Notes under the pieces: generated by a model
Told to the model about the DNA's origin: nothing
Database searches by the model: none
What the model saw: only the letters and a program-made list of their open reading frames with translations
Shown here: piece after piece, positions 2,962 to 62,325 of the stretch
How the letters are laid out: each line of letters begins with the position of its first letter
Position numbering within the stretch: the stretch's first letter is position 1
Program-made: the position numbers and the translations under genes
From: a virus
DNA length: 64,000 bases
Reading direction: 5' to 3' (one strand)
Virus record (IMG/VR): IMGVR_UViG_3300032308_001297
Span: 62,001 to 126,000 of that record

Positions 2962-3641
2962 TGTAAATCCTCAACCATTGGAAATTCATACTTATTATAG
3001 CTTATTAATTTAAATTTTTCAACAATAAAAACTTCATACATAGGAGCAGCTACTTGAATAGTCAGTCCACTTCTTTTAAGAATATCTTTTGTAGAAGCAA
3101 ATATAATACCATTTTCTCCATATGAATAATGCAATGGCCTAGCTTCGTTACGAAAAGCAGTAATTACTTTATCTTTATCTAAAGTGCATACAGACATACT
3201 TGCTGGACGAAACTTATGTAAAGGAATTTCTCCAGCCTCTAAACATCGAAGAATTAATTCGCTATCATTCTTTGTGATAACATCATATCCAAAAGTTCCT
3301 TTCCAATTTTCTGGATTTTCTTGAGAAATAACTCCATTATGAGCAATAGAAAGTTCTTCTGACGCCATTGGTTGATTGTAAGCAAGATCGCTAGTTGAAT
3401 AACGAACATGACCAATACAATAAAGATTACCATCTTCATTGACCCAACTAGGAATGTCTTGATTGTTTATAAATGTGCAAGCATTAACAGGTTCTTTAAT
3501 AGTGTGAACCTTGCCACCCTTAACATAAGAAACTCCAGTGGCATGTTTACCACGGATCATTGATTGAATAAAGAGCCGACGAACAAGTTCGAACTCTTGC
3601 TCGCTCGGTTTCTTTATCGCTATTCCTAGCACACCACACAT
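2958..3641 (-). CDS. Class II glutamine amidotransferase
   Basis: 227 residues. It starts MCGVLGIAI, so Cys2 becomes the N-terminal nucleophile after Met removal, as in Ntn-type amidotransferases (GlmS, PurF and AsnB families). Other family motifs are present: YCIGHVRYSTS (substrate-binding Arg), SIAHNGVIS (oxyanion Asn and Gly) and TKNDSELIL (Asp). It is a stand-alone glutaminase domain with no synthetase or isomerase domain, so the ammonia acceptor must be a separate protein. The downstream amidoligase is the obvious candidate. Its ATG overlaps the stop of the TET/JBP gene (TAATG), and its TGA overlaps the amidoligase ATG, so three enzymes are coupled in translation. Confidence 0.85.
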   Translation of the reverse strand: MCGVLGIAIKKPSEQEFELVRRLFIQSMIRGKHATGVSYVKGGKVHTIKEPVNACTFINNQDIPSWVNEDGNLYCIGHVRYSTSDLAYNQPMASEELSIAHNGVISQENPENWKGTFGYDVITKNDSELILRCLEAGEIPLHKFRPASMSVCTLDKDKVITAFRNEARPLHYSYGENGIIFASTKDILKRSGLTIQVAAPMYEVFIVEKFKLISYNKYEFPMVEDLQ

Positions 3642-5011
3642 TAGAAAAATGACTCCAACGAAGCTATCTCAGTTCCACCGTATGGATCTTTCATATCATG
3701 AGCAGTAAGATAGTCATACCATTCTTTATCTTCCCACATTCCTGGTGAAACTCCATTCCACAACGGACGATGTAAAGGATGATCTTTATTGGTACGACGA
3801 TCTTCTACAAATTGTTTACGTAACATTTCGTAATTATAAGATTGTAATTCTAACATCTTTTCTCGGAAATAGCAAACTACAGATATTCTTTCATTAGTAA
3901 CATCGTCCGGATTGTTAAGAACAATAGGAGTATTACCATGAATGATTTCGTGGTTGTTAACAAGGAGCAAATCGCCGGGACGAACATTAACAGCAATACG
4001 ATATTCAGGAAATACAAGATAGCCTCCAGTGTATTCTCCAGTCCCAAGAACTAGAAGATTTGATAGACCTGCATCAAGATCACCAGCATCTCGATGACAA
4101 GCAGTGCGGAAAGTTTTATTTACTGTAATAGTAGTGAATACTGTTTCAGGAACTAAGAAACGTGGATCAAGTTTATCTGCTGCTGCTTTCTGATTACCCC
4201 AACGCCAAGGTAGTAAATCCTTGAAACCTCTATTTAATGATTGGAGGAATGGATATGCAAGTTCAAATAATTCTGGATGTTTTTCAGTGTATGACGTTGC
4301 ACGCCCGTAAGGAATGCGAGGGTAACGATCGTACCAACCAGCAACACCTGAGAATACTGACTTTGCATAGTTAGTTGTTGATGCCCATTTTTCTGCAACC
4401 ATTCTTGCTTCTTCATAGACATCCTCCTTAGATTTATTAGATAAACCATCAACCCATTTATCAAACCAACCATGATATTCTGGATATACTTTCTGAACTT
4501 CTGAACGTAGCCAAACAGTGCCACGTGTTTCGTCAACTGGTTTATATTTAGGATCGTTATACTTTGCGCGAATACTTTCAATTGAATTATCTTCGAATAA
4601 CGAAGCACCATCATTCATCAAGAACTCAAGAACTTCCATTTGATATGGTGAAACCCAATCTCTGCCACCACGTCCTTCAGTGGAAAGCATTTCACCACGT
4701 GGACCAGCAGCAAGACCACGATTCTGACTTTCTGTTGCAGCGCCTCTCAGACCACGATAAGCACTATCCTGTTCTTCTTTAGTGAAGTAATTTTTACGAA
4801 ACTTGAATGCAATACGTAATTCATCATTACCTTTATCACAATCTTCACAATCCTTCATACCACAATCTGCTTTCTCAAGCGGATCGCAAAGCGGAGGCAT
4901 ATAACAATCAGTATCTTCCTCGATTAATTTATCGTAATGACTTTCATCGACGAAAGTACCTAATAGATGTTCGCAATCATGTTTTGTCTTTGCTACAATG
5001 CGTCTTACCAT
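3641..5011 (-). CDS. TET/JBP-family 2-oxoglutarate/Fe(II) dioxygenase
   Basis: 456 residues from the ATG at 5011, which overlaps the MazG-like stop (TGATG). A GTG one codon earlier is possible. The C-terminal half has the JBP/TET signature: TFRTACHRDAGD gives the iron ligands H306 and D308, then GEYTGGYLVFPEYRIAV, NNHEIIHGNTP with distal H358, and ERISVVCYFRE with 2OG-binding R385. Family members oxidise the methyl of thymine or 5-methylcytosine in DNA. The N-terminal 60 residues hold a Cys cluster (C13, C36, C42, C50, C55, C58) that may bind metal. Residues 60-250 are unassigned. Which base is oxidised cannot be told from sequence. The DNA-modification function is strongly supported by the family but untested. 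Confidence 0.85.
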   Translation of the reverse strand: MVRRIVAKTKHDCEHLLGTFVDESHYDKLIEEDTDCYMPPLCDPLEKADCGMKDCEDCDKGNDELRIAFKFRKNYFTKEEQDSAYRGLRGAATESQNRGLAAGPRGEMLSTEGRGGRDWVSPYQMEVLEFLMNDGASLFEDNSIESIRAKYNDPKYKPVDETRGTVWLRSEVQKVYPEYHGWFDKWVDGLSNKSKEDVYEEARMVAEKWASTTNYAKSVFSGVAGWYDRYPRIPYGRATSYTEKHPELFELAYPFLQSLNRGFKDLLPWRWGNQKAAADKLDPRFLVPETVFTTITVNKTFRTACHRDAGDLDAGLSNLLVLGTGEYTGGYLVFPEYRIAVNVRPGDLLLVNNHEIIHGNTPIVLNNPDDVTNERISVVCYFREKMLELQSYNYEMLRKQFVEDRRTNKDHPLHRPLWNGVSPGMWEDKEWYDYLTAHDMKDPYGGTEIASLESFF

Positions 5012-5391
5012 CACTCATCCCCATAAAGAATAGATTTAATATCAGGCGGTCTCCAACCATCTGGTTTTAAAATCTTACCATCAGCACGACGAACTGGTTT
5101 TCCATCAACTAATTTTGCCATGTTTGATTTATGCACTTCGGCGAACACTTTATCGAGGGGAATACCGTAAGATGCAGCAGTGCCACACACAATGTAAATA
5201 ATATCAGCGAGCTCTTTAGCAATATTCTCCACATCGTTTTTGCACTCTCCTTGAATGTATTCTTCATATTCTTCCTTTAGTAATCTAAGTCTAAGTTCAC
5301 GTTCTGCTGGATCAGGAAGTTCTGGCTTTACACCAATATTCTGACCAACTGCTGTTTGAAAATCTTTAACATCTTGAAACATATTACTCAT
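5011..5391 (-). CDS. MazG-like nucleotide pyrophosphohydrolase
   Basis: 126 residues of the all-alpha NTP-pyrophosphatase superfamily. The metal-binding motifs are LLKEEYEEYI (ExxE-type) and IAKELADIIYIVCGTAASYG (ELxDxxY), followed by FAEVHKSNMAKLVDG. These enzymes hydrolyse nucleoside triphosphates to monophosphates. In phages they may remove unwanted dNTPs or lower alarmone levels. In this operon a role in trimming the nucleotide pool for base modification is possible but not shown. The gene overlaps both neighbours by a few bases. Confidence 0.8.
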   Translation of the reverse strand: MSNMFQDVKDFQTAVGQNIGVKPELPDPAERELRLRLLKEEYEEYIQGECKNDVENIAKELADIIYIVCGTAASYGIPLDKVFAEVHKSNMAKLVDGKPVRRADGKILKPDGWRPPDIKSILYGDE

Positions 5392-14169: not shown

Positions 14170-14781
14170 ATGGATTATAAACATATCAAAACCACAGAAT
14201 TTTCATTTATTTTATTTGAGAATATTTTTAATTTTGAAGAACAAAAAAGTATTTTCAAAGAATGTATGTTTCTTTGTGACCCTATCAAATTACAACTAAC
14301 AGAAAGATCTTCAGCTGCTCGTAGAAAAGATGGAAAATTGAAAAAATCTAATAAAGGTTTATTTCTCGAGGAAATTTATAAAGATAGGAAATATTCTAAT
14401 TATCTCGCTTTATATAAGAAACCGTTTGAATTATTAGATATGAACACCATAGCGAAACAAGACGATAACTTTTTACCTTATACAACAACTAATGTAGATA
14501 ATACTTTATTCAGTTATTATCAAGATGGAGACTATTACGAATCTCATATAGACGATGCAAAATTTACTTATTTATTTTGGGCTTGTTCTGAGCCAAAACA
14601 ATTTACAGGCGGAGAATTGGTTTTAGACGATATCAATTATACAGTAGAAATAAAAAACAATTCTGGTATTTTATTTCCATCTAAAGCTAGACATACTGTT
14701 AATAAAATTGCAATGGAAGATAAAACACCATTTAATTGTAGAGGAAGGTTTTCTTTCTCGACGTTTTTCGGGGTAAAATGA
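14170..14781 (+). CDS. 2OG-Fe(II) oxygenase (prolyl-4-hydroxylase-like), the only plus-strand gene
   Basis: 203 residues. The double-stranded beta-helix motifs are clear: FSYYQDGDYYESHIDDAKFT gives H126 and D128; ELVLDD sits mid-fold; FPSKARHTVNKI gives distal H175; and CRGRFSFSTFFG gives a 2OG-binding Arg (R191 or R193). Related P4H-type proteins hydroxylate proline or other residues, and the substrate here is unknown. GGGGTAAATC before the ATG is a good ribosome site. It faces against all its neighbours, sits between capsid and gp3, and shares a bidirectional terminator with the capsid gene. It looks like an inserted cassette. Confidence 0.85.
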   Translation: MDYKHIKTTEFSFILFENIFNFEEQKSIFKECMFLCDPIKLQLTERSSAARRKDGKLKKSNKGLFLEEIYKDRKYSNYLALYKKPFELLDMNTIAKQDDNFLPYTTTNVDNTLFSYYQDGDYYESHIDDAKFTYLFWACSEPKQFTGGELVLDDINYTVEIKNNSGILFPSKARHTVNKIAMEDKTPFNCRGRFSFSTFFGVK

Positions 14782-14834: not shown

Positions 14835-16223
14835 TTACATAAGGTTGTTGACGATAATTCTGCGATAGTACTTGTTAGTAGTAATCGCACGACGTCCAAG
14901 ACCTGGGTTAGTACCTTCGGCGAATGGATTTGCAACCATGCCGTAACGAGTCTTAAAGCCGATCTTTGGCTGGAATGAGCTCTGATCAACTGCACGAACC
15001 ATCTGTAGTGGAACGTATGGGCAGTAGAAAAGGCCAGCGTCGAAGGCTGATGAACCCTTATAGCCAACAGTGAGATAGTTACCACCGAGAGCGTAAGGAT
15101 CGATATAAACCTTTAGACGACCATTGAGAACACCAGCGAAAGTGTTACCAGTATCATCAACCTGAAGGTTGTTTGAGTTAAGGGCAGGAGCGTAGTCGAG
15201 AACACCAGCCATCTGTAGAGCAGAAGCAACGTCTGAAGAACAGATAACGATGTTACCTTTACCACGACGAGTCTGCTTAGCAATAGCGTTAGCTTCGCGT
15301 TCTAGCTGGAACATAAGACCCTTGAACTTCTCAACTGACCAACGACCGTTTGAATCAGTGTCAAGATCGAAGACACCAGCAGTAGTTGTATTTTCCTGAG
15401 CGCCAGCTTCAGCAGTGATGTTGATAGTACGAACAACTTCACGGTTGATTTCGGCTAGGATTTCAGCTGAAAGAATGTTAGCTAGTTCTGTCTCAGCGTC
15501 TAGACCATGGATTGCTTTAAGATCCTGAGCAAGTTCCATAGTGTACTCAGCTTTTAGAGCACGAGTGTTAGCAGAAACAGTAACCTTCTCGATTGAGAAA
15601 GCCATTTCTGGGAATGCAGTATTAGCATCAGTTCCGAGAGCTTCAGCCTGGAAAGTTGACATACCATAACCAGTGTTATAAGTGTTAACAGCAGTTAGTG
15701 GTGATGTGTTAGTAGCACCTGGAATAGTTCCAACGTGCTTCTGACCAAGAGTGTTAGCTCCTGAAGTAACAGAAGAGAACTGAGTGTTAACTTCGTTGTA
15801 GAAAGTTTCTGCACCAGCATTGTTGAATGACTGAGTAGCAGCATTTCCGCCAGTAGCATAACGTGAACGCATTGCGAAGATAAGGCCAGTTGGGCCAGTC
15901 ATTGGCTGAACGCCGCAGATATCGTAAGCAATTAGGTTAGGCATTGCACGACGAACTAGGGAGATAAGAACAGGATCGAAAGTATCGATACCGCCAGTTC
16001 CCTGAGTTGAAGATGAAGCGCCCATAAGGTTGTTATGAACGAATGATGATGTCTCAGTTAGAGTCTGATAATCACCATGAGCGGATGACTCACGAAGAGC
16101 CTTTTCTGTGTTCTCAAGCATAACAGCAGTTACTGAACGGCGATGCTGGTCCTTAATAGTACCAAGAGCGTCGTGGTCAAGAACTGGTGCCCACTTGTTT
16201 TGAATTTCCTCAGCTAGATACAT
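14835..16223 (-). CDS. 23: Major capsid protein gp23
   Basis: 462 residues (T4 gp23 is 521). Hallmarks of the family: MPNLIAYDICGVQPMTGPTG, then AEYTMELAQDLKAIHGLDAE, ILAEINREVV, VGYKGSSAFDAGLFYCPYVP and IGFKTRYGMVANPFAEG near the C-terminus. Residues 1-60 correspond to a shortened delta region that the gp21 protease probably removes. It forms the hexamers of the head shell, and no gp24 vertex gene is seen here. It is preceded by an exact late promoter and followed by the UUCG terminator, consistent with high expression. Confidence 0.97.
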   Translation of the reverse strand: MYLAEEIQNKWAPVLDHDALGTIKDQHRRSVTAVMLENTEKALRESSAHGDYQTLTETSSFVHNNLMGASSSTQGTGGIDTFDPVLISLVRRAMPNLIAYDICGVQPMTGPTGLIFAMRSRYATGGNAATQSFNNAGAETFYNEVNTQFSSVTSGANTLGQKHVGTIPGATNTSPLTAVNTYNTGYGMSTFQAEALGTDANTAFPEMAFSIEKVTVSANTRALKAEYTMELAQDLKAIHGLDAETELANILSAEILAEINREVVRTINITAEAGAQENTTTAGVFDLDTDSNGRWSVEKFKGLMFQLEREANAIAKQTRRGKGNIVICSSDVASALQMAGVLDYAPALNSNNLQVDDTGNTFAGVLNGRLKVYIDPYALGGNYLTVGYKGSSAFDAGLFYCPYVPLQMVRAVDQSSFQPKIGFKTRYGMVANPFAEGTNPGLGRRAITTNKYYRRIIVNNLM

Positions 16224-28971: not shown

Positions 28972-29937
28972 TTATTGGATCTTTTTATTTAATTCTTTAA
29001 TAGCTTCAATCAACAGAGCAACAATTCTATCATATTTAACAGCTTTAGTTCCATCATTTCTTGTAACAACTACTTCTGGTAGAACCTTTTCGAGTTGGTC
29101 GGCGATAACACCAACGTCATGTTTACGAATAAAATAACCATCTTCGCCGCCATGCTCTTCGATGTATTGGTCAGTCCAATCGAACTCAACGCCATCAAGC
29201 CACAGAACTTTATCAAGAGCGTTTGGAATTGGTTTAATGTTTTCTTTAAGAGAAGCATCAGAAGAATAGTAAGCAGTAATATTATTAACAGCACGAATTT
29301 CGCCAGATGTTCCAGAGGCTGGAGTTCCAACACCAAGAGATTGAATCTGCGAAACACCAGTTGTTACTGCAGTGTTCATTGTTGTAAGACCAGAAACAGT
29401 AAGGTTATTACTCATGTTAACAAGTCTAAGATTAGTTGTAGAGCTTACAACATTAAGAGTTCCGCCAATAACAGCGTTTCCTGTAACAGATATACTAGAA
29501 CTGAAATTACCATTACCGCTGAAACTCATTTGATTAGAAAAAGTAGCTGCGCCCGTAATCAATACAGTATTAGAAAAAGTAGCTGCGCCATTAACATTTA
29601 ACGGTCCATTGAAAGTACCATTGCCACTAAAATTCATCTGGTTGGAAAAGGTAGCAGAGCCAGTTACTAAGATTGTATTGGCGAATGTAGCTGCACCATT
29701 TATATTAAGACCACCAGTAGCAGTAATAGTGGAGATCGTAGCAGTATTAACGTTTAATGTTCCAGTAATTTGACAATTACCGATAACGTTGGCAAACCCT
29801 GTTATTTCGGTGTTACCGTTTACTGATAGAACTTGACCTGGAGTTAATGTGTTTATACCAACCTTTCCGTTTCTTACAGACAGAAGGCTGGTATTTACTA
29901 TAAGACCGTTCTTTACGATAAAATCTGAATTTGCCAT
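28972..29937 (-). CDS. Fibre protein with peptidase S74 chaperone domain
   Basis: 321 residues from the ATG at 29937 (GGGAACC upstream and a late-promoter variant behind it; the longer frame is discounted). The N-terminus reads MANSDFIVKNGLIVNTSLLS. The middle holds two near-identical units of about 40 residues (GAATFSN then SFSGNG types) in a beta-helix-like repeat. The C-terminus is an S74 intramolecular chaperone starting at SSDASLKENIKPIPNALDKV, with Ser226 and the following Lys as the usual self-cleavage pair, then GVIADQLEKVLPEVV. The domain helps a trimeric fibre fold and then cuts itself off. It lies unusually between the neck genes and the other fibres. Confidence 0.85.
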   Translation of the reverse strand: MANSDFIVKNGLIVNTSLLSVRNGKVGINTLTPGQVLSVNGNTEITGFANVIGNCQITGTLNVNTATISTITATGGLNINGAATFANTILVTGSATFSNQMNFSGNGTFNGPLNVNGAATFSNTVLITGAATFSNQMSFSGNGNFSSSISVTGNAVIGGTLNVVSSTTNLRLVNMSNNLTVSGLTTMNTAVTTGVSQIQSLGVGTPASGTSGEIRAVNNITAYYSSDASLKENIKPIPNALDKVLWLDGVEFDWTDQYIEEHGGEDGYFIRKHDVGVIADQLEKVLPEVVVTRNDGTKAVKYDRIVALLIEAIKELNKKIQ

Positions 29938-29965
29938 GGTTCCCTTTCCCCTATGTCGTTTTAAG

Positions 29966-29973
29966 TATTTATT
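29966..29973 (-). promoter_or_regulatory. Late-promoter variant (AATAAATA) for the S74 fibre gene
   Basis: One mismatch from TATAAATA, 29 nt before the start codon at 29937. It lies over the stop of the upstream oxygenase gene and supports the shorter start. Confidence 0.5.
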
Positions 29974-30595
29974 TAAATTTTGGACCCTCAACCCAAATCA
30001 CTAAAGATTTTCTTATACCACGAAGAACAGGAGTAACTTTATGAATAAGAAAAGAAGGAAATGCTACTATTCTGCCTTTATGTAATGGTACAGGTAAAGC
30101 GTTATTTTCCATACCCATATTCATCAATAAATCGCCGCCAACAAAATCAGTACCAGATTCATTTAACAATAGGATCAAAGATAATTTTCTTGTGTCTTCA
30201 GTTTCGTTGATATTTTTTCCTAAAAACGTGTCCATATGCCAATCATAAGTTCCTTCGTTCTCAGAATCGTAAACTGTAAACTGAATTTTTTCGTAGCCAT
30301 TCAAATCAAAACCATAAAAATTATCGTTTATACTTTTAATGATATTATTAAATCTCTCAAAAATCCATCCAGTTTCTTTGTTTTTAGAAAAAAAATTAAC
30401 TTTTGATCTTCTGATATTATTATTTTCCGACAACCCATTTTTATCAAAAATTTTAGAATCGTCAAAAGAAAAAGTTTTTTCTAAATTTTGTAATTGAATT
30501 ATTTCTTCTTCCGAAAATCCATTATCCCAGAACACATAAGGATAAGTTGTTTTTTTCCTATCAGTAGGATTATTATGTATAGTAGTATAATTCAT
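29969..30595 (-). CDS. 2OG-Fe(II) oxygenase (PKHD/prolyl-hydroxylase-like)
   Basis: 208 residues. Iron and 2OG motifs are present: FTVYDSENEGTYDWHMDTFL gives H120 and D122; VGGDLLMN sits mid-fold; GRIVAFPSFLIHKVTPVLRG gives H185; and RKSLVIWVEGP gives R195. This arrangement is close to PKHD-type hydroxylases and to P4H-like phage proteins. The target is unknown. It is embedded in the late fibre operon between a 116-residue protein and the S74 fibre, so modification of a virion protein is one possibility. It is not closely similar to the plus-strand oxygenase at 14170. Confidence 0.88.
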   Translation of the reverse strand: MNYTTIHNNPTDRKKTTYPYVFWDNGFSEEEIIQLQNLEKTFSFDDSKIFDKNGLSENNNIRRSKVNFFSKNKETGWIFERFNNIIKSINDNFYGFDLNGYEKIQFTVYDSENEGTYDWHMDTFLGKNINETEDTRKLSLILLLNESGTDFVGGDLLMNMGMENNALPVPLHKGRIVAFPSFLIHKVTPVLRGIRKSLVIWVEGPKFK

Positions 30596-30608: not shown

Positions 30609-30959
30609 TTAAATATTTGCTTCGAAACTATTAATTTTTCCTAACAATTCTTTGACTACACTAAGATCTTTTTTAATAAAAGGATCTAAAACTTCTTCTT
30701 TATGTTTTAACCAAACAGTTGGAGCGCTACGAATAACAAAATATTCCAATTCTTCTAAAGTTGGTATAGGTTTGTCGTAAAACATCAAATTATAATCAGA
30801 AGCACATCTTGTAGGATAACCATATTTTGTGGTTCTGATTTTTCCATTTTGTTCAAATTCAGTGGCTAACATTTCTTCGGTTACAATATCAGTCCAATAT
30901 CTAACAACCATAGAATGTTGCATTTCATCAACAGAAATAATTCTATAATTAATTTTCAT
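30609..30959 (-). CDS. Small protein following the glycine-rich adhesin, possible fibre accessory
   Basis: 116 residues. The N-terminal part is beta-like (MKINYRIISVDEMQHSMVVR then YWTDIVTEEMLATEF). It continues CASDYNLMFYDKPIPTLEEL and ends in helices (WLKHKEEVLDPFIKKDLSVV). I recall similar small genes next to tail-fibre genes in marine phages, with no known function. Its position directly after the putative adhesin suggests a role in fibre assembly or attachment. Confidence 0.55.
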   Translation of the reverse strand: MKINYRIISVDEMQHSMVVRYWTDIVTEEMLATEFEQNGKIRTTKYGYPTRCASDYNLMFYDKPIPTLEELEYFVIRSAPTVWLKHKEEVLDPFIKKDLSVVKELLGKINSFEANI

Positions 30960-30960
30960 A

Positions 30961-32313
30961 TTATACCTTTGGACCGTTAATTGTTCCTGAGTTCACGTAA
31001 ATAATATTTGAGTTTCCACTGATTGCAGAACCTTGTGGTCCTGTTGCTCCTGTTGGACCTGTTGCACCTGTTGATCCTTTTGGACCGCTAGATCCTGGTG
31101 CGCCCGTTGGTCCTGTTGCACCTGCTGCTCCGTTTGGTCCTTTTGGTCCTGTTCCACCAGCACCACCACCTGAGCCGCCAGCAGCACCATCACCTCCATG
31201 AAAATGAGAATGTCCATCATACCAAGAAGATTGGCTGTGCGTCCCACCTGCGCCTGGATTACCAGCACCACCGATATTGCCACCAGAACCACCAGCACCA
31301 CCATGACTGTGATAACCATGATCATTAACGTGGTTGTGTGCTCCACCACCACCAGCGCCTCCACTGTTACCACTACCAGCACTACCTGCTCCGCCGCCCT
31401 CGACAGCACCACCACCGGCACCAACAGGGCTTCCACCGCCACCACCACCACCGCCGCCGCCAGTGTTGTGAATATGACGACCACCGCCACCACCACCACC
31501 GCCGCCACCGCCTCCGGTGCCGCCTGGACCCCCTGGACCTCCTGCACCGCCTGATCCTCCAGGACCTCCTGGACCGCCAGTACCGCCAGTACCTCCTGGA
31601 CCACCAACACCTCCGGCGCCACCAGTTCCGCCAGTGCCACCAGTGATAGTATTAGCGTTGTTTAATAGAATTCTAATACCTGAAACTGTATCTGCTTGTA
31701 GAGAAATACCACCAGAACCTCCGGTAGCGCCTGTACCACCAGCGTTGCCTATGCCACCAGGTCCACCAGCATTACCTGTGCCTCCAGTGCCACCAGCATT
31801 ACCTGTGCCTCCAGTGCCACCAGAACCTCCGGTAGCACCACCACCACCAGCATTTCCTGCTTGAACGTCAGTGTTATGGTTATGACCTTCCCAATGATCG
31901 CACCAATGATGGCCAGTTGGACCAGCCCAACCACCCCATCCACCGCCACCACCAGCACCTACGCCACCAGTAGAACCTGTACCACCAGCATTTCCTGCTG
32001 TTCCTGTAGTTCCTGTAGTTCCAGCAGTTCCTGTGGTTCCAGTAGTTCCGGAAGATCCAGTATTTCCTGTTGTTCCTGTAGCGCCTGTGATTACTGCATT
32101 ATTTTTAATATAAAGCCATGATCCACTTTTCCAAGAAGTTCCTGTTTTGAACGCTGCAGTTCCTGAACTTGTACTAGCAACATTCGCATCAATAAAACAG
32201 AAAACTGAAAGAGGATAGGCAGGATTAGATGCTTTGGCGTACAAATCTACGTTGTTTTCAGAAGCACTAATCTTAACAATTTTGGTTGGTCTTGGTAAAG
32301 GTACAACAAACAT
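30961..32313 (-). CDS. Glycine-rich putative receptor-binding adhesin (PGII/collagen-like)
   Basis: 450 residues. Residues 1-72 form a compact N-terminal domain (MFVVPLPRPTKIVKISASEN, YPLSVFCFIDANVA, GSWLYIKNNAVITG). Residues 77-200 and 224-390 are Gly-X-X repeats, broken by ISLQADTVSGIRILLNNANT at 203-222. Residues 388-428 are collagen-like GXX (GATGPTGATGPQG). Four His-rich loops interrupt the glycine blocks (134-146, 280-282, 326-337, 359-372). Glycine-rich motifs of this kind form polyglycine-II bundles in the S16-type gp38 tail-tip adhesin, with variable loops contacting the receptor. The same role is inferred here. Its DNA is locally GC-rich for this genome because of Gly codons. Confidence 0.7.
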   Translation of the reverse strand: MFVVPLPRPTKIVKISASENNVDLYAKASNPAYPLSVFCFIDANVASTSSGTAAFKTGTSWKSGSWLYIKNNAVITGATGTTGNTGSSGTTGTTGTAGTTGTTGTAGNAGGTGSTGGVGAGGGGGWGGWAGPTGHHWCDHWEGHNHNTDVQAGNAGGGGATGGSGGTGGTGNAGGTGGTGNAGGPGGIGNAGGTGATGGSGGISLQADTVSGIRILLNNANTITGGTGGTGGAGGVGGPGGTGGTGGPGGPGGSGGAGGPGGPGGTGGGGGGGGGGGGRHIHNTGGGGGGGGGGSPVGAGGGAVEGGGAGSAGSGNSGGAGGGGAHNHVNDHGYHSHGGAGGSGGNIGGAGNPGAGGTHSQSSWYDGHSHFHGGDGAAGGSGGGAGGTGPKGPNGAAGATGPTGAPGSSGPKGSTGATGPTGATGPQGSAISGNSNIIYVNSGTINGPKV

Positions 32314-49784: not shown

Positions 49785-51341
49785 TTATAACTTGATTACC
49801 AGTCTAAAAGTTTCCGACTGTGTGTTTGATCTTACTGTATTATTTATGTTCTGGATATACATTGTATAGATGTCTTGAGAGAAGATATCGCCTCTATCTT
49901 GTAAAGCAAAAGAAGTTACGACAGCGCCATTGGAGTTTTTAATATATTCTCCATCAACAAAATATTTGTCTCCAACAAAATGTGCAACAGAGCCGTTTGA
50001 CCAAACTATTGTGGCTCTAGCGTTACTAGTAGCGCCGATAATAACATCAGTATTAGTAAATGTATAAGCTGGGGAACATGTTGCTATTCCAATCTGACTG
50101 AAGGTATTTGAACTATATCTTGAACCCTTAGATTGATTGTTTGCAATCAATGCGTATGGATTCTTAACTAGACCAATTTTATTATATGTGACATTTGAAG
50201 ATATAGCGTTTGATTCAGTGTTTGAAAATGTAAAGGAAATCGATAATCCCTGCATATCCAATTCAATCGCAGGATCTTTACCATGACCTCCTGGTGGAGG
50301 AACGATAGGATAAACAGTAGCCCCCGAACCATATGATGAATTACTAACAACAACTGCATTAGCCCATGTAATAGAGGATCCTCTATCTAAACAAACCACA
50401 GAAGCGATAGAATTAGTTACAGCGTTAACGACTGTATAAGCTGTTGGGTTATTACCGCTAGCAGAATCACTGGTGAATAAAATTCTTGGAGAAATTTTAT
50501 ACAAAGAAGCGCCAGCAGTAATAGCAGCAGTGTTAGCTGCTGAATCTAAAGAAACTGTTCTTACTGGTCCAGAAACTGTATAGTCTGTAATATTGAAAAT
50601 TTGATATGAATTATTACTTGAACTGTAAATATAAATGCTGTTATTTACATAATGGCCTGGAATCGAAGAAGCATTAGCTTCAATAACCAAAGCTGTAGTA
50701 TTTGTTACGCCCTGGATTGTGCCGTTATGATATGTTTCATACCCAGATCCACCAGTATTAACAACAACAGTTTCAATTCCAGAATATGTTAAAGAAGAAG
50801 ACTGAATAGTAGTGTTAGGGTAAATTGGACAATAATTAATAGTAGAAAATCTATCAAAATCTTCTGTTGAAACAGAAGCTACATATCTCCATTTATAACC
50901 ATCTTCGGTAGTCTGGAAAGTTGTTGATTGAGTTGGAGTTCCTATGGATGCTGGATTTTTTATAGAAGCAGCGCCATTTGCATTGTCAATGCATTTGTAA
51001 AAATGATATGTTCCACCAATAGCTGTTGGAGGAGCGACTACATAAAACACACTATTAGACAAGTCTTTGGTGTTATCGTATCTATCATAAACTGTATTAG
51101 AATTCCAAACATACTTTTTTACTATAGGTGCGAAATTATTTGCTAATAATTTTTTACCAAATAACATTTGCCAATCATTTATGAAATATTTTTCATAATC
51201 GTTATTTTCTATAGATGGTGTATCTCCTGGCCATGGTTCAGCGCCAGCTGCGAATGCATAATAATGAGAAGTATTAGTTGAAACATTATCAACAATCTCG
51301 TCGTAAATAGCTTTTTTGAAAGACGGCGTTAGTTTTCCCAT
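49785..51341 (-). CDS. 8: Baseplate wedge protein gp8-like
   Basis: 518 residues (T4 gp8 is 334). The N-terminus HYYAFAAGAEPWPGDTPSIE and the segment NTVYDRYDNTKDLSNSVFYV, FYKCIDN, TTEDGYKWRYVASVS parallel T4 gp8 (GRSEPW; YRCLD; GDGYVWEYLFEI). A long Ser/Asn-rich insertion (residues 195-420) makes it larger. gp8 dimers bridge gp7 and gp10 in the T4 wedge. The order gp25-gp6-gp7-gp8 agrees with T4, apart from a fibre gene inserted before it. Confidence 0.75.
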   Translation of the reverse strand: MGKLTPSFKKAIYDEIVDNVSTNTSHYYAFAAGAEPWPGDTPSIENNDYEKYFINDWQMLFGKKLLANNFAPIVKKYVWNSNTVYDRYDNTKDLSNSVFYVVAPPTAIGGTYHFYKCIDNANGAASIKNPASIGTPTQSTTFQTTEDGYKWRYVASVSTEDFDRFSTINYCPIYPNTTIQSSSLTYSGIETVVVNTGGSGYETYHNGTIQGVTNTTALVIEANASSIPGHYVNNSIYIYSSSNNSYQIFNITDYTVSGPVRTVSLDSAANTAAITAGASLYKISPRILFTSDSASGNNPTAYTVVNAVTNSIASVVCLDRGSSITWANAVVVSNSSYGSGATVYPIVPPPGGHGKDPAIELDMQGLSISFTFSNTESNAISSNVTYNKIGLVKNPYALIANNQSKGSRYSSNTFSQIGIATCSPAYTFTNTDVIIGATSNARATIVWSNGSVAHFVGDKYFVDGEYIKNSNGAVVTSFALQDRGDIFSQDIYTMYIQNINNTVRSNTQSETFRLVIKL

Positions 51342-53107
51342 TATTTGACATCCATTAAATATGAACCATAAAGATTTGTGCCATCTGAAATGAACATTAC
51401 AATATCTCTGGCGCCAGCAGTCGTAGTAAGTTCAGGTGCAACACCAGCAGTCCATTTAAATACAGAGTTCCAACTAATAGTTCTACTTCCAGGACTATCT
51501 TGAATCACGTGAAGAATATAATTTCCTATTTTTAGATTAGTTGGTGCAGCCATAGTTCTGTTACCACCAAGAGTAACTGTTGCTACCTGACCCAATGCAG
51601 TGTTCCAATTAATAGTTGAACCGTCTGTTAAAGTCTGCGAAAGAACATTAGCTGCTGCAACACTTACCGTTCCGCCAAAATTAGTATTGGCGTTGAAATT
51701 GGCAACACCGTTACAATTAACTACGCCAGTGAAAGCAGAATTACCAGTAACATTCAAATTACCGCCAACGTTTGCCGTGCTAGATAAAGTGGCAGAGCCA
51801 GTAACAGAAATAGTGTTAGCAAAAGAAACATTTGATGTAATTGATGGTATAGTAACATTTGCATTAAAAGATACAGTATTATTAAATTGAAAAATACCAT
51901 AAACATTAACAGTAGCAGTATTGGTTATTGTTACGTTTGCTGCGAAAGAAGAAACATTTGATACATATGTTGGACCAAGAATATACAGATTAGTATTTGT
52001 AATTACGTTTGCGAAAAAGCTCGTGTTTCCAGTAAAAGTGGCTGCATTACTCCACGAGTAAAATGCGCTCGTATTTACACCTGGAACGGTCGACCAATAC
52101 ACAGTCGATCCATTAGAAGTTAATAGCTGTCCAGCTGAACCTGTGGATCCATTGGCTTCTAGGAATTTTGTATTAGGGATCACAAACCCAGAAGAGTTAA
52201 TAACAAAACTATTAACAGAAATAGTATTGGCTTGAATTTCTTTATTAAAGATATGAGTATTGGACCATATGAAATAGCCAGCTGTATTAACAGAGGCAAC
52301 GCCAGGAGAAGACCAGTAAACTCTTGAACTACCGTCAGAAGTCAAATATTGACCAGCTGTACCGAGAGAACCATTGGCTTCAACAGGAAGAGCGTCGCCG
52401 AAAGAAAGCTGTGTGCTATTTACAACAAGTTTTCCACCAACTTGAACGACAGCTGCATTTACTGTTCCTGTGAAAACACCAGTGCTGTTTGCTACAGTAC
52501 TGGTTCCAACAGTGTGAGAAGAAGAGTTTATAACTCCGGTATGATAGATACCAGTAGAATTAGCAATGAGATCAGAACCAACAGTATGCGCTGCAGAATT
52601 GACCGTTCCTGTATGGTACAAGCCAGTGCTATTCCCAATAAGGTTAGTGCCGACAGTATGAGAGGCTGCATTAATTACTCCTGTGTGATATACTCCTGTA
52701 GCATTACCAACAAGGTTAGATCCAACAGTGAAAGAAGCGGCGTTAGCAGAACCATTAACAGTAAGGACAGTAGAATTTACAAATAGGTAATTAGCGACGT
52801 TTGCAGTACCACCAACATTCAAGTTAGCCGAAGCGTTAACAAGGGTTGAATTAACGATTAAGCTATTTGCTAAGTTTAAGAGGCTATTGTTGGCTGTAAA
52901 TCTGACAGTAGAATTACCGAAATAGAAACCAACTGCATTAGATACAGAAGAATTTACAGTTGAATTACCAACTGTGATCATACCAGAAGCTATGTAAGTG
53001 GTATAAATTTCTGTAAAATTATTATTGATTTTGATCATACCGTTTCGAACGGTATCACCAGTTCCATCGTTTGGCGCTGAACCTACGTTAACAACCTGTT
53101 GAGCCAA
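51341..53107 (-). CDS. Baseplate-linked fibre protein with 24-residue repeats
   Basis: 588 residues. The N-terminus VVNVGSAPNDGTGDTVRNGM, IKINNNFTEIYTTY is a common attachment module of phage fibres. Residues 123-217 are four tandem repeats of 24 residues (AASHTVGTNLIGNSTGLYHT-G type). The last 100 residues (VTLGGNRTMAAPTNLKIGNY, GTNLYGSYLMDVK) match the end of the fibre at 32313-33869. It sits between gp7-like and gp8-like genes, where T4 gp9 or gp12-type fibres would be expected nearby. Confidence 0.75.
   Translation of the reverse strand: MAQQVVNVGSAPNDGTGDTVRNGMIKINNNFTEIYTTYIASGMITVGNSTVNSSVSNAVGFYFGNSTVRFTANNSLLNLANSLIVNSTLVNASANLNVGGTANVANYLFVNSTVLTVNGSANAASFTVGSNLVGNATGVYHTGVINAASHTVGTNLIGNSTGLYHTGTVNSAAHTVGSDLIANSTGIYHTGVINSSSHTVGTSTVANSTGVFTGTVNAAVVQVGGKLVVNSTQLSFGDALPVEANGSLGTAGQYLTSDGSSRVYWSSPGVASVNTAGYFIWSNTHIFNKEIQANTISVNSFVINSSGFVIPNTKFLEANGSTGSAGQLLTSNGSTVYWSTVPGVNTSAFYSWSNAATFTGNTSFFANVITNTNLYILGPTYVSNVSSFAANVTITNTATVNVYGIFQFNNTVSFNANVTIPSITSNVSFANTISVTGSATLSSTANVGGNLNVTGNSAFTGVVNCNGVANFNANTNFGGTVSVAAANVLSQTLTDGSTINWNTALGQVATVTLGGNRTMAAPTNLKIGNYILHVIQDSPGSRTISWNSVFKWTAGVAPELTTTAGARDIVMFISDGTNLYGSYLMDVK
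52457..52741. repeat. Four tandem 24-residue (72-bp) repeats
   Basis: Protein residues 123-146, 147-170, 171-194 and 195-217 of the 588-residue fibre. The consensus is (A/S)(A/S)SHTVG(T/S)(N/D)L(I/V)(G/A)NSTG(L/I/V)YHTG(V/T)(I/V)N. Copies vary by several residues each, and the last is one residue shorter. Confidence 0.85.
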
Positions 53108-61081: not shown

Positions 61082-62325
61082 GGTTGACCTCCACCACTCT
61101 GATCAAACGCACCACCTTTAATAACTCTAAGAATCATTGTTGCTCTTGGAGTTTGTCCTAGTGGTTTGATCTTTGTTCTAATAGCAACTACACAAACTTG
61201 ACCATTAAATTGTTTTTCTTTTCCTGTACCATCAGCTGTTCTTGCAGGAATATCTAGTTTTATCATAGAACCTAATTTAATTTTTGGATTGAAATAAGTT
61301 TCTAACTCAGCAGAATTTTGAGACAAATATGAAAGAAAATTTGCTCTGCTATCTCTAGCATCAGCTGTTTTATGTTTTTCTTTGTCGTTTGCTTTATCAA
61401 AAGTTGTATAATGATGAACAGCGTTAGCGTGTTGTGCCTGACCTGAATATTCTGGTTGTCCTGGCAATTTAAATTGCTGTGGTTGTTCGGGGTCTGGCGA
61501 AGAAGGTTTATGTGTTGTTAAATTAAAAGTCTTTTGAGCCGATTTGGTTAAAACACGACTTGGTGTGAAAAAAGAATCAGAAGCTCTAAACCAAATAATA
61601 GAATTTTGTTTTTCTTGATCGCCACCTTTCGAAGCGTCAAGAGTAGTAGTCTGTTTTAAAGTAACTACTGATTCCTCTTTAAATAATTTCTCGAATGTAG
61701 AAAACACATATTTCTGTTGATCGCCAGTTTCTTGAAAAAGAACGTAACAGGAAGATTTATCCTCTTGAGAAACATGTAAAGTATTTAAATGTTTTATTGC
61801 ATCCAAAGGATGTTTATTATTGAGAATAACTCTTCTCTTACCATCGGTTTTACTTTTTTTGTCAATCTGAAGTTTGGTTTTGAACCCCTTTTTAACAACG
61901 TCTTCTACGATATTATCAGTCGTGTCATTATAACTTTTTTGCATAAAATTACCTTGAGCGTTTAATAACTCAGGCGAAACTGCACGAATATCATAATGCT
62001 TGTGTTTTAGATTACCAGCATTATGCATAGATCGATCATTGAGGTTTTTGTTTTGATACATTTTCAATTTAAATTTTTTCTGACCGCCACTGAAACCAGA
62101 ATCAGCCCCAGTTAGAGAAATTTCAACATCTTTGTCAAAAGATCCTTGGATATTGTTTTGACCAAGAGCGTCTTTATAATCAAGCACTCTTATTTCGGCC
62201 ATGGGTCCATATGGGTTTAAAATATCTTCGTAGATATTAAAACCAATGTAAGTGGCTTCTTTTGAATTGGTGAGATCTAAATCCCCAATTTTAAGAGAAG
62301 AAATTTTAATATCACCAACTGGCAT
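61078..62325 (-). CDS. 27: Baseplate hub protein gp27-like
   Basis: 415 residues (T4 gp27 is 391). The N-terminus ISSLKIGDLDLTNSKEATYI, GFNIYEDILNPYGPMAEIRV, LDYKDALGQNNIQGSFDKDV and the middle HPLDAIKHLNTLHVSQEDKS, SCYVLFQETGDQQKYVFSTF are typical of T4-like hub proteins. gp27 trimers carry the gp5 spike. The neighbouring OB-fold gene follows directly. Confidence 0.85.
   Translation of the reverse strand: MPVGDIKISSLKIGDLDLTNSKEATYIGFNIYEDILNPYGPMAEIRVLDYKDALGQNNIQGSFDKDVEISLTGADSGFSGGQKKFKLKMYQNKNLNDRSMHNAGNLKHKHYDIRAVSPELLNAQGNFMQKSYNDTTDNIVEDVVKKGFKTKLQIDKKSKTDGKRRVILNNKHPLDAIKHLNTLHVSQEDKSSCYVLFQETGDQQKYVFSTFEKLFKEESVVTLKQTTTLDASKGGDQEKQNSIIWFRASDSFFTPSRVLTKSAQKTFNLTTHKPSSPDPEQPQQFKLPGQPEYSGQAQHANAVHHYTTFDKANDKEKHKTADARDSRANFLSYLSQNSAELETYFNPKIKLGSMIKLDIPARTADGTGKEKQFNGQVCVVAIRTKIKPLGQTPRATMILRVIKGGAFDQSGGGQP

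Follow-up and report, generated by a model that had tools for sequence, protein, structure and literature searches.

A probable long-shafted, histidine-tipped variant of gp38-like adhesins in an uncultured T4-like virus

The adhesin gene and its neighbours

The DNA analysed here, called the window in the following, is a stretch of 64,000 nucleotides (positions 62,001 to 126,000) of the IMG/VR virus record IMGVR_UViG_3300032308_001297, which comprises 162,364 bases in total. Judged by its major capsid protein, the virus belongs to the T4 superfamily. The genes relevant for this study are listed below, with their positions in the window.

14835-16223: major capsid protein; among isolates, closest to Stenotrophomonas phage DLP6 (71%), then Sinorhizobium phages phiN3 and phiM12 (64%)
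29969-30595, minus strand: 2OG-Fe(II) oxygenase, often linked to the adhesin module (PF13640, E=1.8e-13)
30609-30959, minus strand: unnamed partner gene, 116 aa, following the glycine-rich adhesin wherever a contig has upstream sequence
30961-32313, minus strand: glycine-rich putative tip adhesin, whole gene, 450 aa
32313-33869, minus strand: tail fibre gene; its C-terminal domain is found again directly before adhesins of this kind

The open reading frame of the adhesin is intact, running from an ATG at 32313 to a stop at 30961-30963, and its start codon overlaps the stop codon of the fibre gene before it (TAATG). Glycine accounts for 167 of the 450 residues (37%), next to 16 histidines, seven tryptophans and two cysteines. 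A relative of equal length, 81% identical, was found in contig L003; its sequence is identical in two further contigs, and a fourth copy is cut off by a contig end. The existence of this relative and the overall dN/dS of 0.17 between the two adhesins indicate that the adhesin is under selection as a protein, rather than being an artefact of the reading frame. Searches of 50,697 phage records with tblastn gave no match for the whole adhesin or its N-terminal domain, nor for two partner proteins or the N-terminal domains of two relatives. A profile search of PDB sequences returned chance glycine-rich matches only.

Profile searches with the C-terminal domain of the upstream fibre and with the 116-aa protein revealed a conserved gene order in contigs of T4-like and other tailed viruses, consisting of the fibre C-terminal domain (upstream of the adhesin in most loci), the glycine-rich adhesin, and the 116-aa partner. 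Among 47 contigs found via the partner, a glycine-rich adhesin precedes it in all those with enough upstream sequence, the two exceptions starting at a contig end. Contigs found via the adhesin of a relative have the same order, except L052, which is without the partner. In some contigs (L013, L015), the adhesin and partner pair is present twice in a row. A conserved gene of ~390 aa (MNKKLGFYTIG..., SYSGGSDSHN, PP-loop-like motif) lies after the partner in L013, L015, L020 and L022.

In L006 (3902-6664, Methylophilales phage MEP301), a SPRY-domain protein takes the place of the glycine-rich adhesin behind the fibre C-terminal domain, which may thus act as a general socket able to carry various tips. 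The window itself encodes a second fibre-like protein ending in this domain (51341-53107, minus strand, E 8e-64), with no adhesin after it. Another fibre-like protein, with an endosialidase-type intramolecular chaperone end (Peptidase_S74, E 1.2e-13), is found at 28972-29991 on the minus strand.

Pfam, PHROG, NCBIfam and PDB searches gave no specific match for the partner, and no relative was detected in 84,980 bacterial and archaeal genomes. From its gene position, and by analogy with phage Pam3, in which the glycine-rich tail fibre gp24 has a chaperone, gp25 (PMC9608196), the partner probably serves as a dedicated helper in folding, or as a cap. Both systems would share a glycine-rich distal lattice, a variable tip, and a helper gene encoded alongside. 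However, gp24 is trimeric and has an N-terminal helical bundle as well as a TNF-like domain, and gp25 resembles the Tfa protein of Mu. A Mu-type Tfa/Caudo_TAP chaperone was rejected as the identity of the partner, which has no PF02413 match and an hhalign probability of 0.1% to Mu gpU.

In the 2OG-Fe(II) oxygenase, the HxD motif, the distal histidine and the arginine are invariant. Of 21 module loci of this type, 16 have the gene beside the adhesin module, and its orientation varies. It is not an exclusive partner of the adhesin, as among its 80 best relatives, 51 have neither a recognised adhesin nor a recognised partner in the surrounding stretch. By eye, two more open reading frames of the window resemble 2OG-Fe(II) oxygenases (HxD, distal histidine), at 14170-14781 on the plus strand and 3641-5014 on the minus strand.

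Anatomy and predicted architecture

Along the protein, the following parts were distinguished, all on the minus strand. The four arms share the in-phase glycines and a length that covaries with that of the other arms.

32086-32313, minus strand: N-terminal beta-domain, residues 1-76 (AlphaFold2 block means 65-97, mostly >85; conserved in the family; no Gp38_N match)
31939-32085, minus strand: arm S1, Gly-X-X, residues 77-125
31858-31938, minus strand: His-rich loop 1, residues 126-152, GHHWCDHWEGHNHN (6 of 27 residues differ from L003)
31708-31857, minus strand: arm S2, Gly-X-X, residues 153-202
31642-31707, minus strand: spacer, residues 203-224, SLQADTVSGIRILLNNANTIT, predicted core beta-strands (AlphaFold2 strands 214-219 and 222-224 at pLDDT 87-96)
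31480-31641, minus strand: arm S3, Gly-Gly-X, residues 225-278
31462-31479, minus strand: His-rich loop 2, residues 279-284, RHIHNT
31303-31341, minus strand: His-rich loop 3, residues 325-337, AHNHVNDHGYHSH (1 of 13 residues differs from L003)
31192-31242, minus strand: His-rich loop 4, residues 358-374, THSQSSWYDGHSHFH (most diverged segment, 7 of 17 residues differing from L003)
31030-31191, minus strand: arm S4, collagen-like Gly-X-Y, residues 375-428
30964-31029, minus strand: predicted C-terminal core strand, residues 429-450, SAISGNSNIIYVNSGTINGPKV (AlphaFold2 83-95 over residues 421-450)

Glycine occupies strictly every third position over residues 77-134, about 153-202, 225-278 and 381-428. 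The first glycine block (residues 77-202) has loop 1 inside, and the second (residues 225-428) holds loops 2, 3 and 4 together with the collagen-like end. The initial annotation had recognised the N-terminal domain, glycine blocks, spacer and four His-rich loops, all of which are real, but had placed all loops after the spacer; loop 1 precedes it and only three follow. The collagen-like end that it had also described is confined to the last ~42 residues of the second block (residues 387-428, beginning TGPKGPNGAAGATGPTGAPGSSGPKG) and is better read as the last Gly-X-X shaft arm, its length changing together with that of the other arms.

The first 76 residues form a non-repetitive domain, modelled as all-beta. 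PHROG 10745, a family with no function assigned, matches residues 13-93 (E 1.6e-6) and five of 16 relatives, its best stretch spanning only the N-terminal part of the window adhesin. At the other end, the C-terminal 22 residues show no amino-acid change between the window and L003, and the strand motif ends nearly all family members.

In the AlphaFold2 model of the window adhesin, core residues 11-94, 182-250 and 411-450 mostly have pLDDT values of 80-97. Since these three non-glycine pieces are ordered together, the model suggests that the N-terminal domain, the spacer and the C-terminal strand make up one beta-core, from which the two glycine blocks extend. Structure prediction, proposed earlier as a check, thus gave a confident beta-core with two glycine-rich extensions, but the arms themselves stayed below pLDDT 50. 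When compared to the PDB, this model placed gp38 of PP01 and S16 at ranks 1-3, though weakly (E 0.23-5.4).

A clearer match came from the shorter relative in L012 (302 aa, 16 aligned sequences), modelled with a pLDDT of 83.5, a pTM of 0.72 and arms largely at 73-96. Its best Foldseek hit in the PDB was the receptor-binding domain of PP01 gp38 (9v85_C, E 4e-13; 9v85_A, 4e-12), while all other solved structures had E>=2.8, the polyproline/polyglycine antifreeze proteins being at 4.6-5.3. In BFVD, several entries named gp38 were retrieved (E 6e-16, 1e-14 and 5e-5). These Foldseek E-values reflect local geometry, and the glycine-rich sequence may have inflated them; the TM-scores to gp38 are only 0.3-0.4, with an rmsd of 18 angstrom, so that the likeness is one of building plan and not of a superposable fold.

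The Pfam family GP38 (PF05268) matched neither the window adhesin (E<=1) nor 16 relatives (E<=0.01), and the Gp38_N attachment domain (PF21721, conserved tryptophan on helices) was likewise missing from both. The control, S16 gp38, matched the GP38 profile at 4e-73 and Gp38_N as well. Therefore, we call the adhesin gp38-like for its building plan, without placing it in the Pfam GP38 family by sequence.

In S16 gp38, two turns of a beta-helix are drawn out into a polyglycine sandwich, and the protein contains long Gly-Gly-X and polyglycine runs (PMC6851490). With gp38 of the S16/PP01 type (6F45, 9V85, PF05268), the adhesin would share the beta-core and the two turns extended as glycine-rich arms with variable loops between, and it shares the position directly after a fibre gene. 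The order of motifs is also equivalent. In S16, RINNQGWICGGG stands before the long extension and WINVGNIAG at the end; here, the spacer has an NN-x-G-x-I-x-GG-like entry motif (NNxxxIxGG in common with S16) and the C-terminal strand reads IIYVNSGTING. An hhalign comparison of the two proteins aligned the RINNQGWICGGG motif only, and without significance. Unlike S16 gp38, the adhesin has a different, all-beta N-terminal domain, and ~330 residues in two glycine blocks compared to a glycine domain of 73 residues, which would make for a much longer shaft. A partner gene following the adhesin and a His-rich tip also set it apart from S16 and PP01.

Arm lengths are matched across the family. Three measures were taken from fixed anchors: the spacing of core strands 1 and 2, which covers two arms and loop 1, and the lengths of the in-phase glycine runs that follow strand 2 and precede the last strand. 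They are given here, in this order and in residues, for six members.

Window: 141, 51, 48
L079: 152, 63, 63
L034: 101, 30, 39
L012: 60, 18, 12
L148: 194, 81, 90
L165: 361, 165, 126

Over 31 non-redundant relatives the three measures covary (Pearson 0.98, 0.86, 0.87; Spearman 0.80, 0.75, 0.59), and the covariation stayed clear in independent contrasts on a core tree (0.89, 0.68 and 0.74); under the strict phase rule, L109 and the S4 value of L062 come out too low. Arms have lengthened independently in, among others, L034 when compared with its sister L048, and L122 when compared with L013. Matched lengths agree with arms that are bundled into a shaft and carry the loops at the end. In part, the covariation could also arise if repeats within a single gene generally tend to lengthen at the same time.

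Taken together, we consider it quite likely that the adhesin is the receptor-binding tip of a tail fibre, with a beta-core as cap, matched polyglycine-II arms as shaft, and host-contact loops at the end. The N-terminal domain, spacer and C-terminal strand would form a small beta-core capping the fibre encoded just upstream. Two turns would leave this core as long Gly-X-X arms, packed side by side as polyglycine-II helices. At least four matched arms of ~50 residues each would build a stiff shaft of roughly 16 nm (the polyglycine-II rise is 3.1 angstrom per residue), and the four loops at its far end would touch the host surface. We infer both the attachment to the upstream fibre with receptor contact and the polyglycine-II packing of the window adhesin, the packing being modelled in the shorter relative L012 only. 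The gp38-like polyglycine-II architecture with loops at the tip, first suspected from the sequence of the window, is supported by the core model and by the match of L012 to PP01 gp38. The adhesins of L165 and L168, with more than 850 residues and in-phase glycine runs of 126-213, would have shafts of ~40-65 nm if built alike.

Turnover and composition of the loops

Loop sequences change between close relatives. The adhesins of L036 and L037 differ by an in-frame tandem duplication of 153 bases (downstream DNA 99.7% identical), those of L026 and L028 by an in-frame insertion of 648 bases (downstream DNA 99.8% identical), those of L041 and L013 by an in-frame deletion of 210 bases, and those of L034, L038 and L039 by 18 and 21 bases, with an assembly error possible for any single case. 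Slippage and loop exchange, expected from the repeats, are thus supported by duplication, deletion and insertion in frame. Likewise, the loops are not invariant among relatives, as the divergence of loops 4 and 1 from L003 illustrates. The adhesins of L026 and L031 (1780-3321) carry an inserted domain of 216 residues where the first glycine block ends, just ahead of the spacer; outside of it, these adhesins are 97% identical to that of L028.

Histidine is concentrated in the loops. The window adhesin has six His-X-His motifs, at least one in each of the four loops, compared to 0.56 expected when all non-glycine residues are shuffled, and 1.7-2.6 when the local histidine density is kept (P about 0.02). 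Its relative in L003 has 15 histidines and three HxH motifs. Other His-rich relatives are L061 (13 histidines, CHIHGHYPGC), L109 (19), L120 (12) and L148 (27, CAHC and HHGC). The full-length His-rich members form one clade together with L130, which has four histidines (support 0.97). In several of them, most histidines lie in the second tip region (11 of 16 in the window, 13 of 13 in L061, 12 of 12 in L120, 16 of 19 in L109).

Two readings compete over the loops, and both are compatible with a fibre tip. We give a little better than an even chance to the first, in which the adhesin is a folded gp38-like tip and its His-rich loops are ordinary receptor loops, presenting histidine, tryptophan, tyrosine, asparagine and aspartate to a sugar or protein, without metal. 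The loops of other members, rich in tyrosine, proline and lysine, need no metal. Tryptophan, aspartate and asparagine are also present in the His-rich loops, and the HxH count over the clade is only modestly above that predicted from local composition (17 vs 10.8, P=0.025). This control lowered the motif from strong to modest evidence for metal binding. Such ordinary loops explain less readily that the enrichment of histidine at the tip persists in six members, several of them also rich in cysteine, with loops that are mostly not alignable, while all remaining members have 0-6 histidines and no HxH.

Metal binding by the His-rich tip is plausible as a hypothesis. That the loops bind iron, zinc, nickel or copper, and thereby stiffen the tip or dock on a metal-uptake receptor, is nevertheless a tentative reading, which we find rather doubtful. 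The HxH motifs present in every loop of the window and the His/Cys clusters of the relatives speak for it, and there are precedents: HxH motifs bind iron in T4 gp37, a Trojan Horse hypothesis has been put forward (PMC11705849), and repeated His-X-His in a receptor-binding fibre protein is common to the T4 gp37 tip, the R22Y-like fibres and the adhesin. However, those are trimeric fibres, with the T4 sites formed by three chains, whereas here the motifs sit in loops between glycine arms of a putative polyglycine-II tip and are only partly conserved. Two HxH loops of the window are without the motif in L003 (HIH to HIF; HSHFH to HSFYV). A gp37-type iron needle was also looked for, and the adhesin gave no gp37-like match in Pfam or PDB.

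Going further, one clade of gp38-like adhesins might have turned its tip into a metal-binding surface that docks, for example, on a metal or siderophore uptake receptor, with the linked oxygenase perhaps modifying Gly-Pro arms or tip residues; we regard this as unlikely. In such a scenario, loop sequences would turn over freely while their content of histidine, and in some members cysteine, is kept, and the virus would present metal bound at the end of a polyglycine shaft of unusual length.

Collagen-like alternatives and significance

The glycine repeats could also belong to a collagen-like trimeric fibre, in which three chains wind their Gly-X-Y stretches into triple helices and the protein would be part of the shaft rather than a monomeric polyglycine-II tip. 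Residues 387-428 do weakly match PHROG models of collagen-like and fibre proteins (E 1e-3 to 2e-4), and the neighbouring 2OG-Fe(II) oxygenase is of a broad superfamily that includes prolyl hydroxylases. Yet the three separated non-glycine pieces are predicted to fold as one core, so that each arm would leave the core and loop back to it, and independent triple helices need no matching of arm lengths. The long Gly-Gly-X and polyglycine runs are unlike collagen and present in S16 gp38, which L012 resembles structurally. Altogether, a collagen-like fibre appears improbable. Least probable of all is a decoration or structural protein of the virion with no direct role in host recognition, since despite the conservation of loop 3 between the window and L003, the adhesin follows a fibre gene in most loci, its tip domain diversifies, and a relative matches the receptor-binding gp38.

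The adhesin is probably a new long-shafted, His-tipped variant of the gp38-like adhesins. New here are the matched arm lengths, the three-gene module with its unnamed partner, the clade with His-rich tips, and the in-frame loop changes between near-identical viruses. Polyglycine tips of the gp38-like kind would thereby be extended to uncultured T4-like and other tailed viruses that have no Pfam GP38 match. The matched arms suggest that the shaft changes its length by adding repeats in all arms together, a building rule that can be tested, and the unnamed partner gene may represent a new family of helpers. Finally, the clade with His/Cys-rich tips offers a direct test of whether tailed viruses grip their hosts via bound metal.
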